Positions 11,010 to 55,583 of a DNA stretch of 64,000 bases are shown here, one piece after another. The stretch's first letter is position 1, and every line of letters starts with the position of its first letter. The position numbers and the translations under genes are program-made. The stretch is from assembly GCA_944325075.1 (NCBI GenBank), contig CALUYU010000001.1, forward strand, positions 1 to 64,000. The letters run 5' to 3'. The notes below the pieces were generated by a model that ran no database searches, was not told where the DNA came from, and saw nothing but the letters and a program-made list of their open reading frames with translations. Source of the DNA: Candidatus Gastranaerophilales bacterium (lineage in GTDB: Bacteria; Cyanobacteriota; Vampirovibrionia; Gastranaerophilales; Gastranaerophilaceae).

Positions 11010-12089
11010 GTGCCAAAAGTATCAATAATTGTGCCCATATATAATGTAGAAAAGTATCTTAAAGAATGTCTGGATTCGCTAACAAATCAAACATTAAAAG
11101 ATATAGAAATATTATGCATAGATGACGGATCAACTGATTCATCAGGCCAAATCTGCGACGAATATGCAAAAAATGATGCAAGGATTAAAGTTATACACAA
11201 ACAAAACTCCGGCTATGGCAACAGTATAAACTTAGGGATAGAAAAAGCAGAAGGGAAATATATCGGCATATTGGAATCCGATGACTATGCCAATAGAAAA
11301 ATGTATGAAGACCTGTGGAATACTGCAGAAAAATTTCAGGCCGATAATGTAAGATGCAGCTGGTATGAATGTTTTCCTGAAAAAAATGTCTACATTAATG
11401 TCGGAACTATTTCGCCTAAAATCGCAAACAAAGTAATTACCTTCAGGGATTACCATAAAATATTAAAAAATAAAACCATGATTTGGGGAGGAATATTAAA
11501 AAAAGATTTCTTAATTAACAATAATATTAAATGCCTCGAAACTCCCGGAGCAAGTTATCAGGATACATCTTTTAATTTTAAAATATTAACTCTTGCACAA
11601 AGGCTGGTTCTTGTAGACAAACCTTACGTTTATTACAGAAAAGATAACATAAATTCTTCTGTTAAAAATAAGGGAAAAGTCTATTTTATCTGCGACGAAT
11701 ACTCCGAAATAACTAAATTCCTAAATGAACACCCGGACATTAAAAAAGAAATTAATTACAGAAAATTAATTAATGAATACAATAATTATGTATGGAATTT
11801 ACTCAGAATATCTGAGGAGTATCGTGAAGAATTTATAGTAAAATTTGCTGAAATTTTTAAACAGTATTACGATAATGGAGAATTAGACGAAAAATTCTAT
11901 AATAAAATCAGCAAGGATGAGGTGGAAACTCTTTTAAATAATAAAAATGAATACCTGAATATTATTAACAAAAAAATCAAAAAGAAATTAGCAAGAGAAA
12001 AACGGAAAAATATGTTCTCATTAAAAACAAGCCGTACAGGAATAAGCCTGATATTATTCGGGAAACAAGTTATTAATATAAGCAAATAA
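11010..12089 (+). CDS. Glycosyltransferase family 2
   Basis: A 359-residue GT2 enzyme of the EpsJ/WcaA style. The N-terminus reads VSIIVPIYNVEKYLKECLDS, followed by the donor-binding LCIDDGSTDSSGQICDEYA and the metal-binding GILESDDYA (about 86-94). A Lys-rich C-terminal segment of about 120 residues follows the catalytic domain. The start is GTG, placed after ACGGAGATAATTC. A separate promoter is possible, because a TGGTACAAT sequence lies about 40 bases upstream. It is the last gene of the glycosylation region and converges on the AlkD-like gene 5 bases away. Confidence 0.9.
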   Translation: MPKVSIIVPIYNVEKYLKECLDSLTNQTLKDIEILCIDDGSTDSSGQICDEYAKNDARIKVIHKQNSGYGNSINLGIEKAEGKYIGILESDDYANRKMYEDLWNTAEKFQADNVRCSWYECFPEKNVYINVGTISPKIANKVITFRDYHKILKNKTMIWGGILKKDFLINNNIKCLETPGASYQDTSFNFKILTLAQRLVLVDKPYVYYRKDNINSSVKNKGKVYFICDEYSEITKFLNEHPDIKKEINYRKLINEYNNYVWNLLRISEEYREEFIVKFAEIFKQYYDNGELDEKFYNKISKDEVETLLNNKNEYLNIINKKIKKKLAREKRKNMFSLKTSRTGISLILFGKQVINISK

Positions 12090-12094
12090 CATTT

Positions 12095-12781
12095 TTAACT
12101 CTTTAATAATTTGACTTTTTCCTTGTCCGCTTTAGAAACTTTATATGACTCACAAATTTTACGTATTGTTTTATTCTTTATTTCTTCATCTAAATCCGAA
12201 TTTTTTAGGAGCCAATAAACTCTGTCAGGAAATTTTATATAACAAAGTGAAAGAGTCCACGCAGCAGCCATTTTGGCGTAATACCCTTCATGACGGGTCT
12301 TTTTGATTATCTCAAGCACTTTATCAATGTATTGCTCATTAATATAATAATTAAGCATCATAACTAGTGAAAAACGAACTTTATACTCATCATCAGATGA
12401 GGCCAGAGGAACAATATAATTCCAAACCAAATCCATATTATTTTTAGTAAATTTTAAGCTGCAGCAAAAACTATCACAAATTGACCAGCAATTTATTTTA
12501 GGTAAAAATTTGTTTACAAAAATTAAAATATTTTCAGGCCCATCTTTAATTAAACCTATGAGCATGCCCTGAAGCATGGCCTCTTCCATGTAAACACAAT
12601 CTTGACTCAAAAAGTCAGTGTAATTTTGTTTTATTAATTCTTTTGCAAGCTTTCTCAAAACAGGAAGCCGAACCCCAAGAACATTATCAATATTCGGAAG
12701 CAGAGAGGCCGAAAATCTCTGATATTCCTTATCCTGAAGTGAAAAAAGTCTTTCCCTTATATTACAAACGTTAGTTTCCAT
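12095..12781 (-). CDS. DNA alkylation repair protein, AlkD-like
   Basis: A 228-residue protein made of HEAT-like helical repeats and matching the AlkD family of DNA glycosylases, which remove bulky or cationic alkylated bases. Typical segments are NVLGVRLPVLRKLAKELI, EEAMLQGMLIGLI, NCWSICDSFCCSL and the repeat YYAKMAAAWTLSLCYIKF. The usual catalytic Asp corresponds to the WSICD motif. It stands as a single gene between the glycosyltransferases and the efflux operon; an upstream hairpin (12807-12830) ends the efflux transcript. Confidence 0.85.
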   Translation of the reverse strand: METNVCNIRERLFSLQDKEYQRFSASLLPNIDNVLGVRLPVLRKLAKELIKQNYTDFLSQDCVYMEEAMLQGMLIGLIKDGPENILIFVNKFLPKINCWSICDSFCCSLKFTKNNMDLVWNYIVPLASSDDEYKVRFSLVMMLNYYINEQYIDKVLEIIKKTRHEGYYAKMAAAWTLSLCYIKFPDRVYWLLKNSDLDEEIKNKTIRKICESYKVSKADKEKVKLLKS

Positions 12782-12798
12782 ATTCCCAAAGGTTTCCC

Positions 12799-12830
12799 GA
12801 AAAAGAAAGTCTCGTCGATTGACAAGACTT
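12799..12830 (-). terminator. Terminator of the emr operon
   Basis: Read on the minus strand, AAGTCT-GTC pairs with GAC-AGACTT (12807-12830, loop of 4) and is followed by TTTCTTTTT. It lies between the stop of the second EmrB gene and the start of the AlkD-like gene. Confidence 0.75.
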
Positions 12831-12934
12831 ATAAATATACATTTACCCCACCTTTTTTATACCATAAAATCATTTTTTTGTCAACACTTATTTACAAAAA
12901 ACGTTATTACGGAGTATTTTATTTATTACCTGAC

Positions 12935-14503
12935 TTAAACAGTCTTACGCTTTTTTATAAGCAACAGAAGGGGTATAATAACCAGACAAAGAACCCCAAA
13001 TACTCTGAATGCATCCATAAATGCCCATAAATTAGCCTGCTCAATAAGCTGACCGTATAAGGAATATTGAGCCATATAATTCGCAACAGAATGATGCGTA
13101 TACTGGGTCAATGAAGCAGCCGTTGACTGTAATCTTTCAATATATGCAGTGTTTAAATCATTAAGTTTTCCTACCATCATATATTGATGAACTTGTGCAA
13201 ATCTTGTGAGCATGGTTGCAACAAGAGATGTACCAACTGCACTGCCGATATTTTTTAGTAAATTTTGAATACCGGTCGCATTTGTCATCTGCTCATTAGT
13301 AAGCGTGTCTACAGATAAATTAATTATAGGCACCATCGAAAGTCCCATGCCCAATCCCATGAAAAAATTAGGAATAATAATATTTATATTTGAAATCTGC
13401 AAATTTAAAGCTGCAAATTCCAAAGACGCACCGCCAAGCAGCATTAATCCAATCATTACTAAAAATCTGTTATCAACTTTATTTGAAAGTAAAGCTGTTA
13501 TTAACATAGCAAGCATGCTCCCAAACCCTCTTGGCATCATGGTTTCTCCGCTTAAAAACGCAGTATACCCCATCATACTTTGCAAAAACTGAGGTAAAAT
13601 AGCAAGTGAAGCATAAAGAACAGCCTGAATAACAACCTGAATTATTGTCCCGACAGAAAAATTTCTATCTTTAAAAACCTTTAAATCAATAAGTGATTCT
13701 TTATTTGTAATCTGAGAATGAAAAAATAATATACAAGCAACAACCGAAATCCCAAATGTCCATCTTATCCAGGTTGCATTAAACCAATCGGCATTGTTTC
13801 CCTTGTCAAGAACTGTTTGCAGGGTTATCAGCCAAATTGTTAAATAAAAAAATCCTTTAGAGTCAATTTTTACATTTTTTTGCTTTTTAGCATAAGGCGG
13901 ATCCTCAATCAGCTTATGGGAAAGAATTGCGGCTGCACATCCAAACGGAACATTTATAAAGAAAATCCACGGCCATGTCCAGTTATCAGTAATCCATCCA
14001 CCCAAAACCGGGCCGATAATCGGAGCCAGAATAATTCCCATGCCAAAAACAGAAGTCGCGGCCCCTCTTTGCTCTTTAGGAAAGCTTTCTATTATAATTG
14101 CCTGCGAAATAGGCAGAATACCACCACCGCCAAAACCCTGCAAAATTCTGGCAAAAATCATAAACTCAATATTTTTTGCCATGCCGCACAGCATAGAAGC
14201 AATAGTGAACATCAAAATACTTATGATAAAAAAGTTTTTCCGCCCAAATACTTTACTAAAAAAATCAACAGCAGGAATAACAATCCCGGCAGCAATAAGA
14301 TAACTTGTCAAAATCCACATTGACTCATCTCTTGTTGCCGAAAAACTTCCGGCCATATGAGGAAGCGCAACATTACCTATAGTTCCGTCCAGCACATAAA
14401 TAAATACCGACAGCATTACAGGTACAATCATAACCCAAGGGTTAATCGACGGCTTCCAATCCATTACAGTGGAATGCATTATTTCATCAGTTTCTTTAGA
14501 CAT
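12935..14503 (-). CDS. emrB: DHA2-family MFS multidrug transporter (EmrB-like), copy 2
   Basis: A 522-residue, probably 14-helix proton-coupled drug exporter of the DHA2 family. It has the N-terminal LDGTIGNVALPHMAGSF, the motif C-like GPVLGGWITDNWTWPWIFF after helix 5, and the GMGLSMVPIINLSVDTLT and NLLKNIGSAVGTSLVATML segments near the C-terminal half. In EmrAB-type systems this inner-membrane pump passes substrate to EmrA and TolC. The start ATG overlaps the stop of the preceding copy (TAATG), so both are translated together. It is clearly a paralogue of the gene at 14503. Confidence 0.92.
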   Translation of the reverse strand: MSKETDEIMHSTVMDWKPSINPWVMIVPVMLSVFIYVLDGTIGNVALPHMAGSFSATRDESMWILTSYLIAAGIVIPAVDFFSKVFGRKNFFIISILMFTIASMLCGMAKNIEFMIFARILQGFGGGGILPISQAIIIESFPKEQRGAATSVFGMGIILAPIIGPVLGGWITDNWTWPWIFFINVPFGCAAAILSHKLIEDPPYAKKQKNVKIDSKGFFYLTIWLITLQTVLDKGNNADWFNATWIRWTFGISVVACILFFHSQITNKESLIDLKVFKDRNFSVGTIIQVVIQAVLYASLAILPQFLQSMMGYTAFLSGETMMPRGFGSMLAMLITALLSNKVDNRFLVMIGLMLLGGASLEFAALNLQISNINIIIPNFFMGLGMGLSMVPIINLSVDTLTNEQMTNATGIQNLLKNIGSAVGTSLVATMLTRFAQVHQYMMVGKLNDLNTAYIERLQSTAASLTQYTHHSVANYMAQYSLYGQLIEQANLWAFMDAFRVFGVLCLVIIPLLLLIKKRKTV

Positions 14504-52185: not shown

Positions 52186-52587
52186 CTATTTAACATAAAA
52201 TTCCGCCTGGGTAAGAGGTGTTTTAGGCTTATCAGCAGAATACACCTTCATAATATATGCACCACGCTCATTTAAAACAAAATAATCCGTGTAATACTTT
52301 GTCTCTTCATCTTTCAACCGTATCCTGCGCGACATGTAAAGGCTGTAACCAAGATATTCAACATCTCCCTTTTTAATAATTTGAATATTCAGTATTCTCG
52401 ACTGCTGAACTTCCGGCATTATTACCAAATAATATATTCTTGAGCCGGGAATAAACACGCTTGAAAAATCAAAAACATTCTCTTTTGTAATAGGACGTTC
52501 ATTAAAAACAATACTTGCCTTTTCGCTGCAGCCGGATGTTGTTACTGCCAGTATGAATAAAAATAAGTATAAAAAAAGCTTCTTCAT
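52186..52587 (-). CDS. Hypothetical lipoprotein
   Basis: A 133-residue protein with a lipoprotein signal (LYLFLFILAVTTSGC, lipobox TSGC with acylated Cys20). The mature part is about 113 residues of mostly beta strands (YYLVIMPEVQQSRILNIQII, YSLYMSRRIRLKDEE, YIMKVYSADKPKTPL). Function unknown. It overlaps or abuts the TPR gene by one base (start at 52587, stop of the TPR gene there), so the pair is one operon and may form an envelope complex. Confidence 0.75.
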   Translation of the reverse strand: MKKLFLYLFLFILAVTTSGCSEKASIVFNERPITKENVFDFSSVFIPGSRIYYLVIMPEVQQSRILNIQIIKKGDVEYLGYSLYMSRRIRLKDEETKYYTDYFVLNERGAYIMKVYSADKPKTPLTQAEFYVK

Positions 52588-54626
52588 TATTTTTTCAAAC
52601 TCTTAATCCGGTCTTCAACAGCCGAAACAGCAGACTGATCCTTATTATATTTTAGGAATAATTCATAATTTTTTATTGCTTCTTCTTTATTTTTTTCAGT
52701 TTCATAAGCAATACCGAGTGCATAATATGCATATGCATATTCAGAATCTATTCCGATAGCTTTTTCAAAACACTGTTTACTATTTGCTACATCTTTCTGA
52801 TTTGCGTATACAAGCCCCAGATTAAACCAGCCGTCTGCATACTCAGGTTTTACAAAAATAGCCTTCTTGTAAAACTCAATTGCATTAGCATCATCATTTT
52901 TTAATTTATATACATTACCTATTTTTAGCAGTGTAACTTCATCGGAAGGATTAATAGCCAAGGCATCTTTATAATTCTGAATAGCCTCATCATAACTCTT
53001 CTTTTTATAATTTTCGTCACCTTCTGCAATTAAGTCCTTATTCTTTTCGTTTATTGCAGTATCAGCTTTAGTCTCTTCTTTAACACCATCATCAAGTGTT
53101 ATAATTACCGGTTGAATTTCTCCGGTTGAAGAGGTAGTTTCAACAGAAGTATTTGAATTTATTTCTGCTATAAATTCCGCAAACTCTTCACTATATTTAG
53201 TATTATCCGGACTCATAGAAATTGCTTTTTCATAATACTCTGTTGCTTTATCGTTGATTTTACAAGCACGATATGCCTGAGCAAGCCCAAAATATGCAGA
53301 GCTGTCGCTTGTTCCTCTTGATATTGCTTTAATAAACAAATCCGTCGCATTTGAATAATTTTGTTTCTGCAAATCAAGCTTAGCCTGGGCAATAATTGCG
53401 TCAGTTAAATTGTGCTGAACTATTTCGCTATCTTTTACTTCAAGAATAGAATTATATAAAGCAATAGCCTCCTCATAACGTTCAAGAGCATGGAGAGCTA
53501 TCGCCTTATTTATCTTAATATCTACATTATCAGGTTCTTCTACAAGCACTTCATCGTAATACTTAAGAGCATTTACATAATCCTTTTCAAGATGATAGCA
53601 TGCGGCTAATTCCTTTTTAATATTAACATCCTTTGTATCAATGGATATAGCCTTTTCGTAATTAGCTATTGCATTCTTGTAATCTTTCTGGCGCTGATAA
53701 ACCAGACCTAAATTTTTATAAACTCTGGCATCATTAGGATAGAATTGCGAATACTTTTGATATTCGGAAACAGCCATAGTATTATTTCCCATATCAGCAA
53801 GAAGATTTCCGTAATCAAACCTCAAAGAATGCAAATTGGGGTTCTGTTTAAAAATATCGTTAAACTGCGCAAGCGCCAAATCATTTTTATCAAGATTCTG
53901 GTATGCCAATGCAAGGCAAACTTTGGCAGTTAAATTAGAAGAATCTTTTTCTACAGCTTTTTCCAAGAATTCTACTGATTTTTCATAATTATTAATTTCA
54001 AAAAGCGCAATACCGTAATTTGCATAATCATCAAAATGATTGTTGTTGTTTACATACAAATTTTCATATTCCTCAGCGGCTTTTTCCGGGTTGTTATCAG
54101 CCAGATATGCCTGAGCAAGGCTTTTTCTGGCTTCCCAATGCTGGGAATAGGTATTTAAAAACAAATTATAATTTTCTATAGCAGACTTATATTCTTTCAT
54201 TTGATACTGCACATTTGCAATATTCAAATAATTATATTTGTATTCAGGAAAAATCTTTAAAGCATTTTCGTATGCCCCAAGAGCTTCAGTGTATTTTCCC
54301 TGGGTTTCATATATGCTGCCCAAACTTATATAAACAAAAGCATCGTTCGGGCGGAGCTCAATAACTTTAGCATACGCTTCAATTGCTTTATCGTAATCAT
54401 CCATATCAGTATACAAACCGGCAAGTTTTGTATAAAGCATAGCGTCATCCGGTGACAGCTTAATTGCTTCCAAAACTTTAGCGACAGCTTGGGTAAACTC
54501 TCTCTGATATTCAAGAGTACAAGCCTCCTGATAAAGCGAACTTGCCTCAGGTGTCATTGCAGCATATCCGGGATAAGATGCAGCCAAAGACAATATAAGT
54601 GCTGTTAGAAAAATATGCTTTTTAAT
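52587..54626 (-). CDS. Exported TPR protein with apparent ATT start
   Basis: About 679 residues. The body is at least twelve TPR units (AYAKVIELRPNDAFVYISLG, NYEKAISIDTKDVNIKKELA) with a Ser/Thr-rich linker at about residue 495-520 between two TPR blocks. The nearest usual start is TTG at 54593, which has no ribosome binding site and would cut the signal peptide. Eleven codons upstream an ATT at 54624-54626 has AAGGAG exactly 8 bases before it and gives KKHIFLTALILSLAASYPG, a full signal peptide; a stop codon follows upstream. I therefore start it at ATT. It is coupled to the lipoprotein gene at 52186. Confidence 0.8.
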   Translation of the reverse strand: MKKHIFLTALILSLAASYPGYAAMTPEASSLYQEACTLEYQREFTQAVAKVLEAIKLSPDDAMLYTKLAGLYTDMDDYDKAIEAYAKVIELRPNDAFVYISLGSIYETQGKYTEALGAYENALKIFPEYKYNYLNIANVQYQMKEYKSAIENYNLFLNTYSQHWEARKSLAQAYLADNNPEKAAEEYENLYVNNNNHFDDYANYGIALFEINNYEKSVEFLEKAVEKDSSNLTAKVCLALAYQNLDKNDLALAQFNDIFKQNPNLHSLRFDYGNLLADMGNNTMAVSEYQKYSQFYPNDARVYKNLGLVYQRQKDYKNAIANYEKAISIDTKDVNIKKELAACYHLEKDYVNALKYYDEVLVEEPDNVDIKINKAIALHALERYEEAIALYNSILEVKDSEIVQHNLTDAIIAQAKLDLQKQNYSNATDLFIKAISRGTSDSSAYFGLAQAYRACKINDKATEYYEKAISMSPDNTKYSEEFAEFIAEINSNTSVETTSSTGEIQPVIITLDDGVKEETKADTAINEKNKDLIAEGDENYKKKSYDEAIQNYKDALAINPSDEVTLLKIGNVYKLKNDDANAIEFYKKAIFVKPEYADGWFNLGLVYANQKDVANSKQCFEKAIGIDSEYAYAYYALGIAYETEKNKEEAIKNYELFLKYNKDQSAVSAVEDRIKSLKK

Positions 54627-54665
54627 TTTTTTAACTCCTTATTTTAACAATATAATAACAAAAAA

Positions 54666-55583
54666 TTATATTTGTGTAAAGCTATGTGAATAAACCTTAT
54701 GATTAGAAAGTATTTCAACAGTCTTTATTATCATTGTTTGTTCCTCACTATTACTATTATATTCTATATCACTTAAATCGGAAAGTTTTTCAACCATGCG
54801 GGCGATATCAATATACAATTCATCTGTTTTATTTTGAGGAGAATTTAATTCAAGCATTCTAAAAATTCTTACAAGTTCTAAATCTTTTGCATCAATTATA
54901 GCAGCGTCGAGGCCGGCTCCAAAGGCCATTACGGCAAATACTCTGTTTATCAGCGGACGTAACTCTGCCGGACAGCCGTTTGAAACATTAGAAAGACCTA
55001 CTAATGTTTTAACCGGAGGATCAAAAGATTCTTTTATCATTTTTATTGTATTAATCGCCTCCGGGGCCTGGGATTGATCAGCGGTTACAGGTAAAACCAG
55101 CGGGTCAAAGTAAATTTTTTCGGTATCAATGCCTTTTTCCAAAAACTTTTCATACATGTCAAAAGCAATCTCAAGCCTTCCATCTGAAGTTTTCGGTATC
55201 CCGGTTTTGTCCATTGTAAGCGCAATAATATTACTATCTTTTTCAACAGCCAGATCAGATAGTTTATCAAACCTTTCAGGGTCATTAGATGTACTGTTTA
55301 TAAAAGCATGCGATGAGTTGCTACAAACTTCAAAACCCGATTGCATTTCCGAAAAATTAGTTGTATCAAAGGATATTCCAGCAGAAGAATTTTCCTGAAC
55401 CAGCCGCACAAGCCACGGCAGAACTCCTTGGAATGAACCTTTTGCCGGGCCTACATTCAGGTCTATAAAATCCATATTTTCCTGAAGTTTAATTAACTCC
55501 GTAAAGAAATCTCTATCTCTTTTAAGCAGAGCCTCTTTAACTGTTTTTGAAATTATATGAATATTTTCGCCTATTAATAACAT
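54666..55583 (-). CDS. Pterin-binding methyltransferase-like protein
   Basis: A 305-residue TIM-barrel protein of the pterin-binding family (dihydropteroate synthase, MetH folate domain, AcsE). It begins LIGENIHIISKTVKEALLKR and has DFIDLNVGPAKGSFQGVL, ISFDTTNFSEMQSGFEVC, IIALTMDKTGIP, LVLPVTADQSQAPEA and VGLSNVSNGCPAELR. It most resembles methyltetrahydrofolate:corrinoid methyltransferases, which pass a methyl group to a cobalamin protein. No corrinoid protein is adjacent, so its partner is unknown. Confidence 0.78.
   Translation of the reverse strand: MLLIGENIHIISKTVKEALLKRDRDFFTELIKLQENMDFIDLNVGPAKGSFQGVLPWLVRLVQENSSAGISFDTTNFSEMQSGFEVCSNSSHAFINSTSNDPERFDKLSDLAVEKDSNIIALTMDKTGIPKTSDGRLEIAFDMYEKFLEKGIDTEKIYFDPLVLPVTADQSQAPEAINTIKMIKESFDPPVKTLVGLSNVSNGCPAELRPLINRVFAVMAFGAGLDAAIIDAKDLELVRIFRMLELNSPQNKTDELYIDIARMVEKLSDLSDIEYNSNSEEQTMIIKTVEILSNHKVYSHSFTQI

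Follow-up and report, generated by a model that had tools for sequence, protein, structure and literature searches.

The window analysed here is a 64,000-nt stretch from the start of a contig of a Candidatus Gastranaerophilales bacterium. On its minus strand it carries a gene for an exported TPR protein, directly followed by a short lipoprotein-like gene, with the following features:

52186..52587, minus strand: 133-aa lipoprotein-like gene, its ATG overlapping the TPR stop (TAATG), from frame reading and orthologue neighbourhoods
52587..54626, minus strand: CDS of the exported TPR protein (679 codons and a stop), from direct reading and translation, with Pfam and AlphaFold2
54555..54557, minus strand: conserved ATG, Met24 of the TPR protein
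54558..54626, minus strand: signal peptide region, residues 1-23, mature protein from about Met24, cleavage site judged by eye
54591..54593, minus strand: TTG, codon 12 and first canonical in-frame codon, without a Shine-Dalgarno, from a frame scan
54624..54626, minus strand: ATT start codon of the TPR gene, read from sequence and conserved in orthologues
54635..54640, minus strand: Shine-Dalgarno AAGGAG, 8 nt before ATT, read from sequence and orthologues
54639..54641, minus strand: in-frame TAA stop closing the TPR frame upstream, from translation
54652..54680, minus strand: promoter-like TTTACA - 17 nt - TATTAT with a TG before the second hexamer, consensus match only

Read on the minus strand, the start region is TAA GGA GTT AAA AAA ATT AAA AAG CAT ATT TTT CTA ACA GCA CTT ATA TTG, and translation places the terminal stop of the frame at 52587-52589. 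The initial annotation had proposed an in-frame ATT with AAGGAG 8 nt upstream as the start of 679 residues, and direct reading and translation bear out all of these points. Between the upstream stop and the TTG at codon 12 the frame contains none of the codons ATG, GTG and TTG. It had also held that this TTG, as the next start, would destroy the signal peptide, which is indeed the case: the codon lies inside the signal peptide, and the frame begun there (MSLAASYPGYAA) has lost it. With the promoter-like site the leader would be some 20 nt long; a consensus search gave four such sites in the stretch, with 1.8 expected. No structure was found in the leader (z +1.4, with 195 of 200 shuffled versions folding as well or better).

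A start at TTG or at the ATG of Met24 would instead yield a cytoplasmic TPR protein and turn the upstream stretch into a leader. Both codons are in frame, and all 13 orthologues that were aligned share Met24; TTG, however, besides having no Shine-Dalgarno, is not conserved. In pairwise comparisons of 12 rows of the genus, L022 included, codons 2-11 differ at first, second and third positions 242, 100 and 296 times, and the 30 nt upstream 307, 327 and 320 times, the pairs not being independent. The window differs from L009, its nearest relative, at three places in codons 2-11, all of them third positions. Judged by these substitutions, the stretch before TTG evolves like coding sequence. The signal peptide is moreover kept in orthologues, and those with canonical starts begin upstream of this point, in most cases at a position equal or close to the homologous one, some 20-27 codons ahead of the mature part (e.g., L062, GTG at -23 with AAGGAG 7 nt upstream). 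We consider an internal start highly improbable.

The exported protein matches Pfam TPR_1 with 224.5 bits (cut-off 27.8). In the AlphaFold2 prediction (mean pLDDT 88, pTM 0.55), the helices form two solenoids with a low-confidence linker, residues 492-522, between them; confidence is also low at residues 2-22, which is to be expected of a leader that is cleaved off. The solved structures related to it are TPR proteins of a generic kind, including many designed ones, and no function beyond that of a putative exported scaffold can be assigned. The 133-aa lipoprotein-like product has no family in a Pfam search, and its gene adjoins the TPR gene in same-genus loci. The overlap between TPR stop and lipoprotein start is found in 34 of 38 orthologues with non-canonical starts, 13 of 26 with canonical ones and one of five whose start is open, counts that omit 56 of 125 loci with too little sequence.

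The TPR gene has an orthologue in 11 of the 13 genomes of the genus, each with ATT at the corresponding position, which supports the initial annotation in its choice of start codon. The Shine-Dalgarno lies 7-8 nt before it, with GAGGG in place of AAGGAG in one locus (L017). No match was obtained in the remaining two genomes (G002 and G012, about 90% complete), though nearly the whole family has one: 282 of 288 family genomes, covering 40 of 41 genera, as well as 97 of 97 genomes in an order sample, 22 of which are from six other families. The start was determined in 145 loci, or 144 after removal of L233, which is the contig of L027 (102146 as the length of both, and identical sequence at the start), against 304 genomes with a match, the sample consisting of best matches plus at least one per genus. 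Duplicate sequences were dropped (L019-L021, L023-L025, L029 and L030), and labels were assigned by hand from the Shine-Dalgarno and its spacing.

The first 125 loci comprise 59 with a non-canonical start only, 56 canonical and 10 open. By aligned codon the 59 are mostly ATT, with ATC in L038, ATA in L064 and L118, and ACG in L066, L126 and L128. Another 20 loci added 11 non-canonical, four canonical (L220, L223, L228, L229) and five open cases. The initial annotation had named an ATG elsewhere in orthologues as evidence that would speak against ATT. Such a codon is mostly not seen, and only in the 10 open loci of the first 125 does a nearby ATG leave the choice undecided; most of these read 'ATG AAA ATT' (g7, the others being from g15, g18, g22 and g27), where the Shine-Dalgarno is too near the ATG and its spacing is good for the ATT. 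Six g10 rows (L031-L036) carry ATC ATT in tandem; ATC was rejected as their start since the alignment puts the homologous start on the following ATT, and they are non-canonical under either label. To our knowledge, natural ACG starts are very rare in bacteria. In genus g9, ACG occupies the start position in all seven sampled genomes (L066, L126, L128, L215-L218), 5-7 nt after AGGAG or AGGAGG. Six of these genomes also have an ATT directly before the ACG, at a shorter distance from the Shine-Dalgarno than is common; L128 (GTT ACG) is the one genome with ACG alone. Among open-licence papers, judged by titles and abstracts, we found none that describes ATT starts for this lineage.

The distribution of these starts was followed on a quick tree of 124 proteins, built after removing the first 60 residues of each frame and excluding L062 (96 aa), with SH-aLRT as its only support. 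The non-canonical state requires at least seven changes. The window falls inside a 38-row clade (g1, g10, g13, g35, g38 and three named records; SH-aLRT 81 at the fork) in which all 38 starts are non-canonical, and ATT is seen again in g4 and g12/g41/g32, and beyond the family in f7 (L183, L184). The tree is unrooted, so we make no claim on which start state is older.

The strongest single result comes from the 38-row clade. Its start column holds 37 ATT and one ATC, which amounts to one change on the tree, and nothing canonical. Seven control columns (Ile in at least 36 of the 38 rows) show 9, 9, 10, 11, 11, 16 and 18 codon changes. The third base of the start codon is held far more than in ordinary Ile codons and has not gone to G in these rows.

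This bears on a simpler account in which ATT is the start and its weakness is merely tolerated, little protein being needed and a strong Shine-Dalgarno compensating, with no regulation involved. Canonical starts do occur in related genera (g14, g20, part of g6 and part of g7 in the wider clade), and so the need for a weak start is not absolute. The weak codon is also accompanied by a strong Shine-Dalgarno, found at 53 of the 59 non-canonical starts and at 10 of the 56 canonical ones. Duplex energies agree with these counts (median -8.6 kcal/mol for 58 non-canonical versus -5.45 kcal/mol for 56 canonical starts); across independent pairs 4.2 of five agree on average (p 0.0625-0.625), so that, with relatedness taken into account, the association does not reach significance. 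Mere tolerance, however, would let the third base drift. ATG is a single third-base change away, yet the clade has no canonical start and one change where comparable Ile codons have 9-18, and this lack of drift counts against tolerance, which we regard as unlikely.

Another explanation for the constancy would be that ATT belongs to an overlapping DNA or RNA element, such as a regulator site around the Shine-Dalgarno, and is not conserved as a weak start at all. AGGAG and AATTAA do stand close together in many orthologues. The flanks, on the other hand, differ between genera while ATT is constant, the leader is without structure, as described above, and other lineages swap ATT for ATC, ATA or ACG, which are likewise weak starts. 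We give such an element very little weight.

Whether non-canonical starts are a habit of this genome was assessed on the window plus 391 kb more, i.e., 455 kb of the 2.26-Mb genome (20%), with the infC locus added as a positive control. The scan of 332 long frames looked for ATT, ATC or ATA with a 5-6 nt Shine-Dalgarno at 5-10 nt and no nearby canonical start with its own Shine-Dalgarno. Only the TPR gene (ATT) and infC (ATA) showed all of these features, and ATT starts are therefore no habit of the genome as far as this 20% shows. An ATA candidate in L140 was set aside because of a Shine-Dalgarno-bearing ATG 13 codons downstream, and the L141 frame at 11334-14054 is an ordinary gene with its ATG further in. 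Frames in L147, L150 and L151 were also flagged, for other codons.

A further candidate, L142 13212-14237, was rejected as an odd start: its PCRF and RF-1 domains identify the product as a class-I release factor, and the gene (13212-14300, minus strand) has AAGGAG...CTTTGAC together with a short frame upstream. This resembles the usual layout of release factor 2 genes with their programmed +1 frameshift. Two other observations were made in the sampled stretches. A startless frame with a pilin-type N-terminus (FTLAEVVITLGIIGVVAAMTLPTLI; L143 15810-16130, minus strand) lies beside a repeat and is perhaps a broken or displaced gene end. A dispersed repeat, CCGACG(A/T)AAAGGAGGCTTAC, occurs in or near frames of four stretches (L141, L143, L144, L148).

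The second gene recovered by the scan, infC, encodes an IF3 with identified IF3_N and IF3_C domains. It was found in the genome of the window (G000), in 11 of 13 genus genomes and in 29 of 30 others. Counted by eye in the 38 readable of 40 family loci (L050-L060, L083-L111; L091 and L094 were not parsed), its start is ATA in 34, ATT in two and ATC in two, mostly preceded by AGGAG. In E. coli, IF3 represses its own synthesis through such an infC start arrangement. A study in S. aureus considers self-repression likely there as well (PMC13009471). An infC that itself begins at ATA, ATT or ATC makes discrimination by IF3 likely in this lineage too, and hence the TPR start a likely target; control of this start by IF3 is what we infer from the analogy. 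The initial annotation had likewise linked ATT starts to tight control by IF3, and the ATA start of infC agrees with that suggestion.

Putting these data together, we think it very probable that the ATT is a selected weak start, discriminated against by IF3, which keeps the exported TPR protein low and probably the neighbouring lipoprotein as well. The strong Shine-Dalgarno would place the 30S subunit so that the initiator tRNA sits on ATT with the third base mismatched; IF3 would then make most of these initiation complexes dissociate, and the TPR protein, still begun with Met, would be made at a low rate. That many relatives have kept a weak start over long evolution suggests that low output is selected for: the lineage mostly retains ATT or shifts to ATC, ATA or ACG, and would avoid the ATG that is one mutation away. 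Since the TPR stop overlaps its start, the downstream lipoprotein would probably also be held low. The low rate, the agency of IF3 and the coupling to the lipoprotein are the parts of this model that go beyond the observed conservation.

More speculatively, IF3 may gate a small and old regulon in this lineage, formed by IF3 itself (ATA) and the TPR-lipoprotein pair (ATT, with ATC, ATA or ACG in places). Envelope TPR output would then track the ratio of free IF3 to ribosomes, and the start would move mainly among codons that IF3 rejects, including the ACG of g9. We hold this wider scheme to be possible, though rather doubtful.

We know of few bacterial genes besides infC that begin at ATT. In the present case a weak start is traceable across a family and beyond, and with about half of the orthologues canonical it offers a natural experiment on the keeping of a poor start codon. 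The same comparison bears on whether IF3 levels control anything besides IF3. There is also a practical side, given that gene finders limited to ATG, GTG and TTG would remove the signal peptide and so misplace the TPR protein in the cell.

Among known systems, sigR of Streptomyces has a GTC start that is repressed by IF3: extra IF3 lowers SigR, and IF3 fidelity mutants raise it (PMC5472188). According to that report, sigR has a strong Shine-Dalgarno (AGGAGGTG), starts with GTC in 32 and GTT in two of 34 genus sequences, overlaps its downstream gene, and shows no evidence of a non-canonical start outside the genus (PMC5472188). The TPR gene shares with it a non-canonical start, a strong Shine-Dalgarno, conservation in the genus, an overlapping next gene and the exchange of one weak codon for another. 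The two differ in that sigR encodes a sigma factor whose IF3 dependence was shown experimentally, while the TPR gene has ATT, an exported product and a conservation that spans many genera.

In S. aureus, cvfC1 (AUU), ccpN (AUA) and infC (AUA) are described as having conserved starts with strong extended Shine-Dalgarno sequences, mapped by ribosome profiling, and in poor medium reporters with AUU and AUA gave about 10% of the AUG output (PMC13009471). On this description they resemble the TPR gene in combining a conserved AUU or AUA start with a strong Shine-Dalgarno, but are unrelated genes from another phylum. The ccpN start is, by the same account, shared by S. aureus and B. subtilis (PMC13009471), and broad conservation is thus not unique to the TPR gene. 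For pcnB of E. coli, the title of the original work states that an AUU start limits translation (Binns and Masters 2002, cited in PMC13009471); to judge from that title, the likeness lies in the AUU start, while gene and organism are unrelated. A further case is infC of the same genomes, with a conserved ATH start and AGGAG about 8 nt upstream; infC, however, regulates itself, whereas the only role open to the TPR gene is that of a target. By its anatomy, the TPR gene would join infC, pcnB, sigR, ccpN and cvfC1, with a conservation that is unusually broad.
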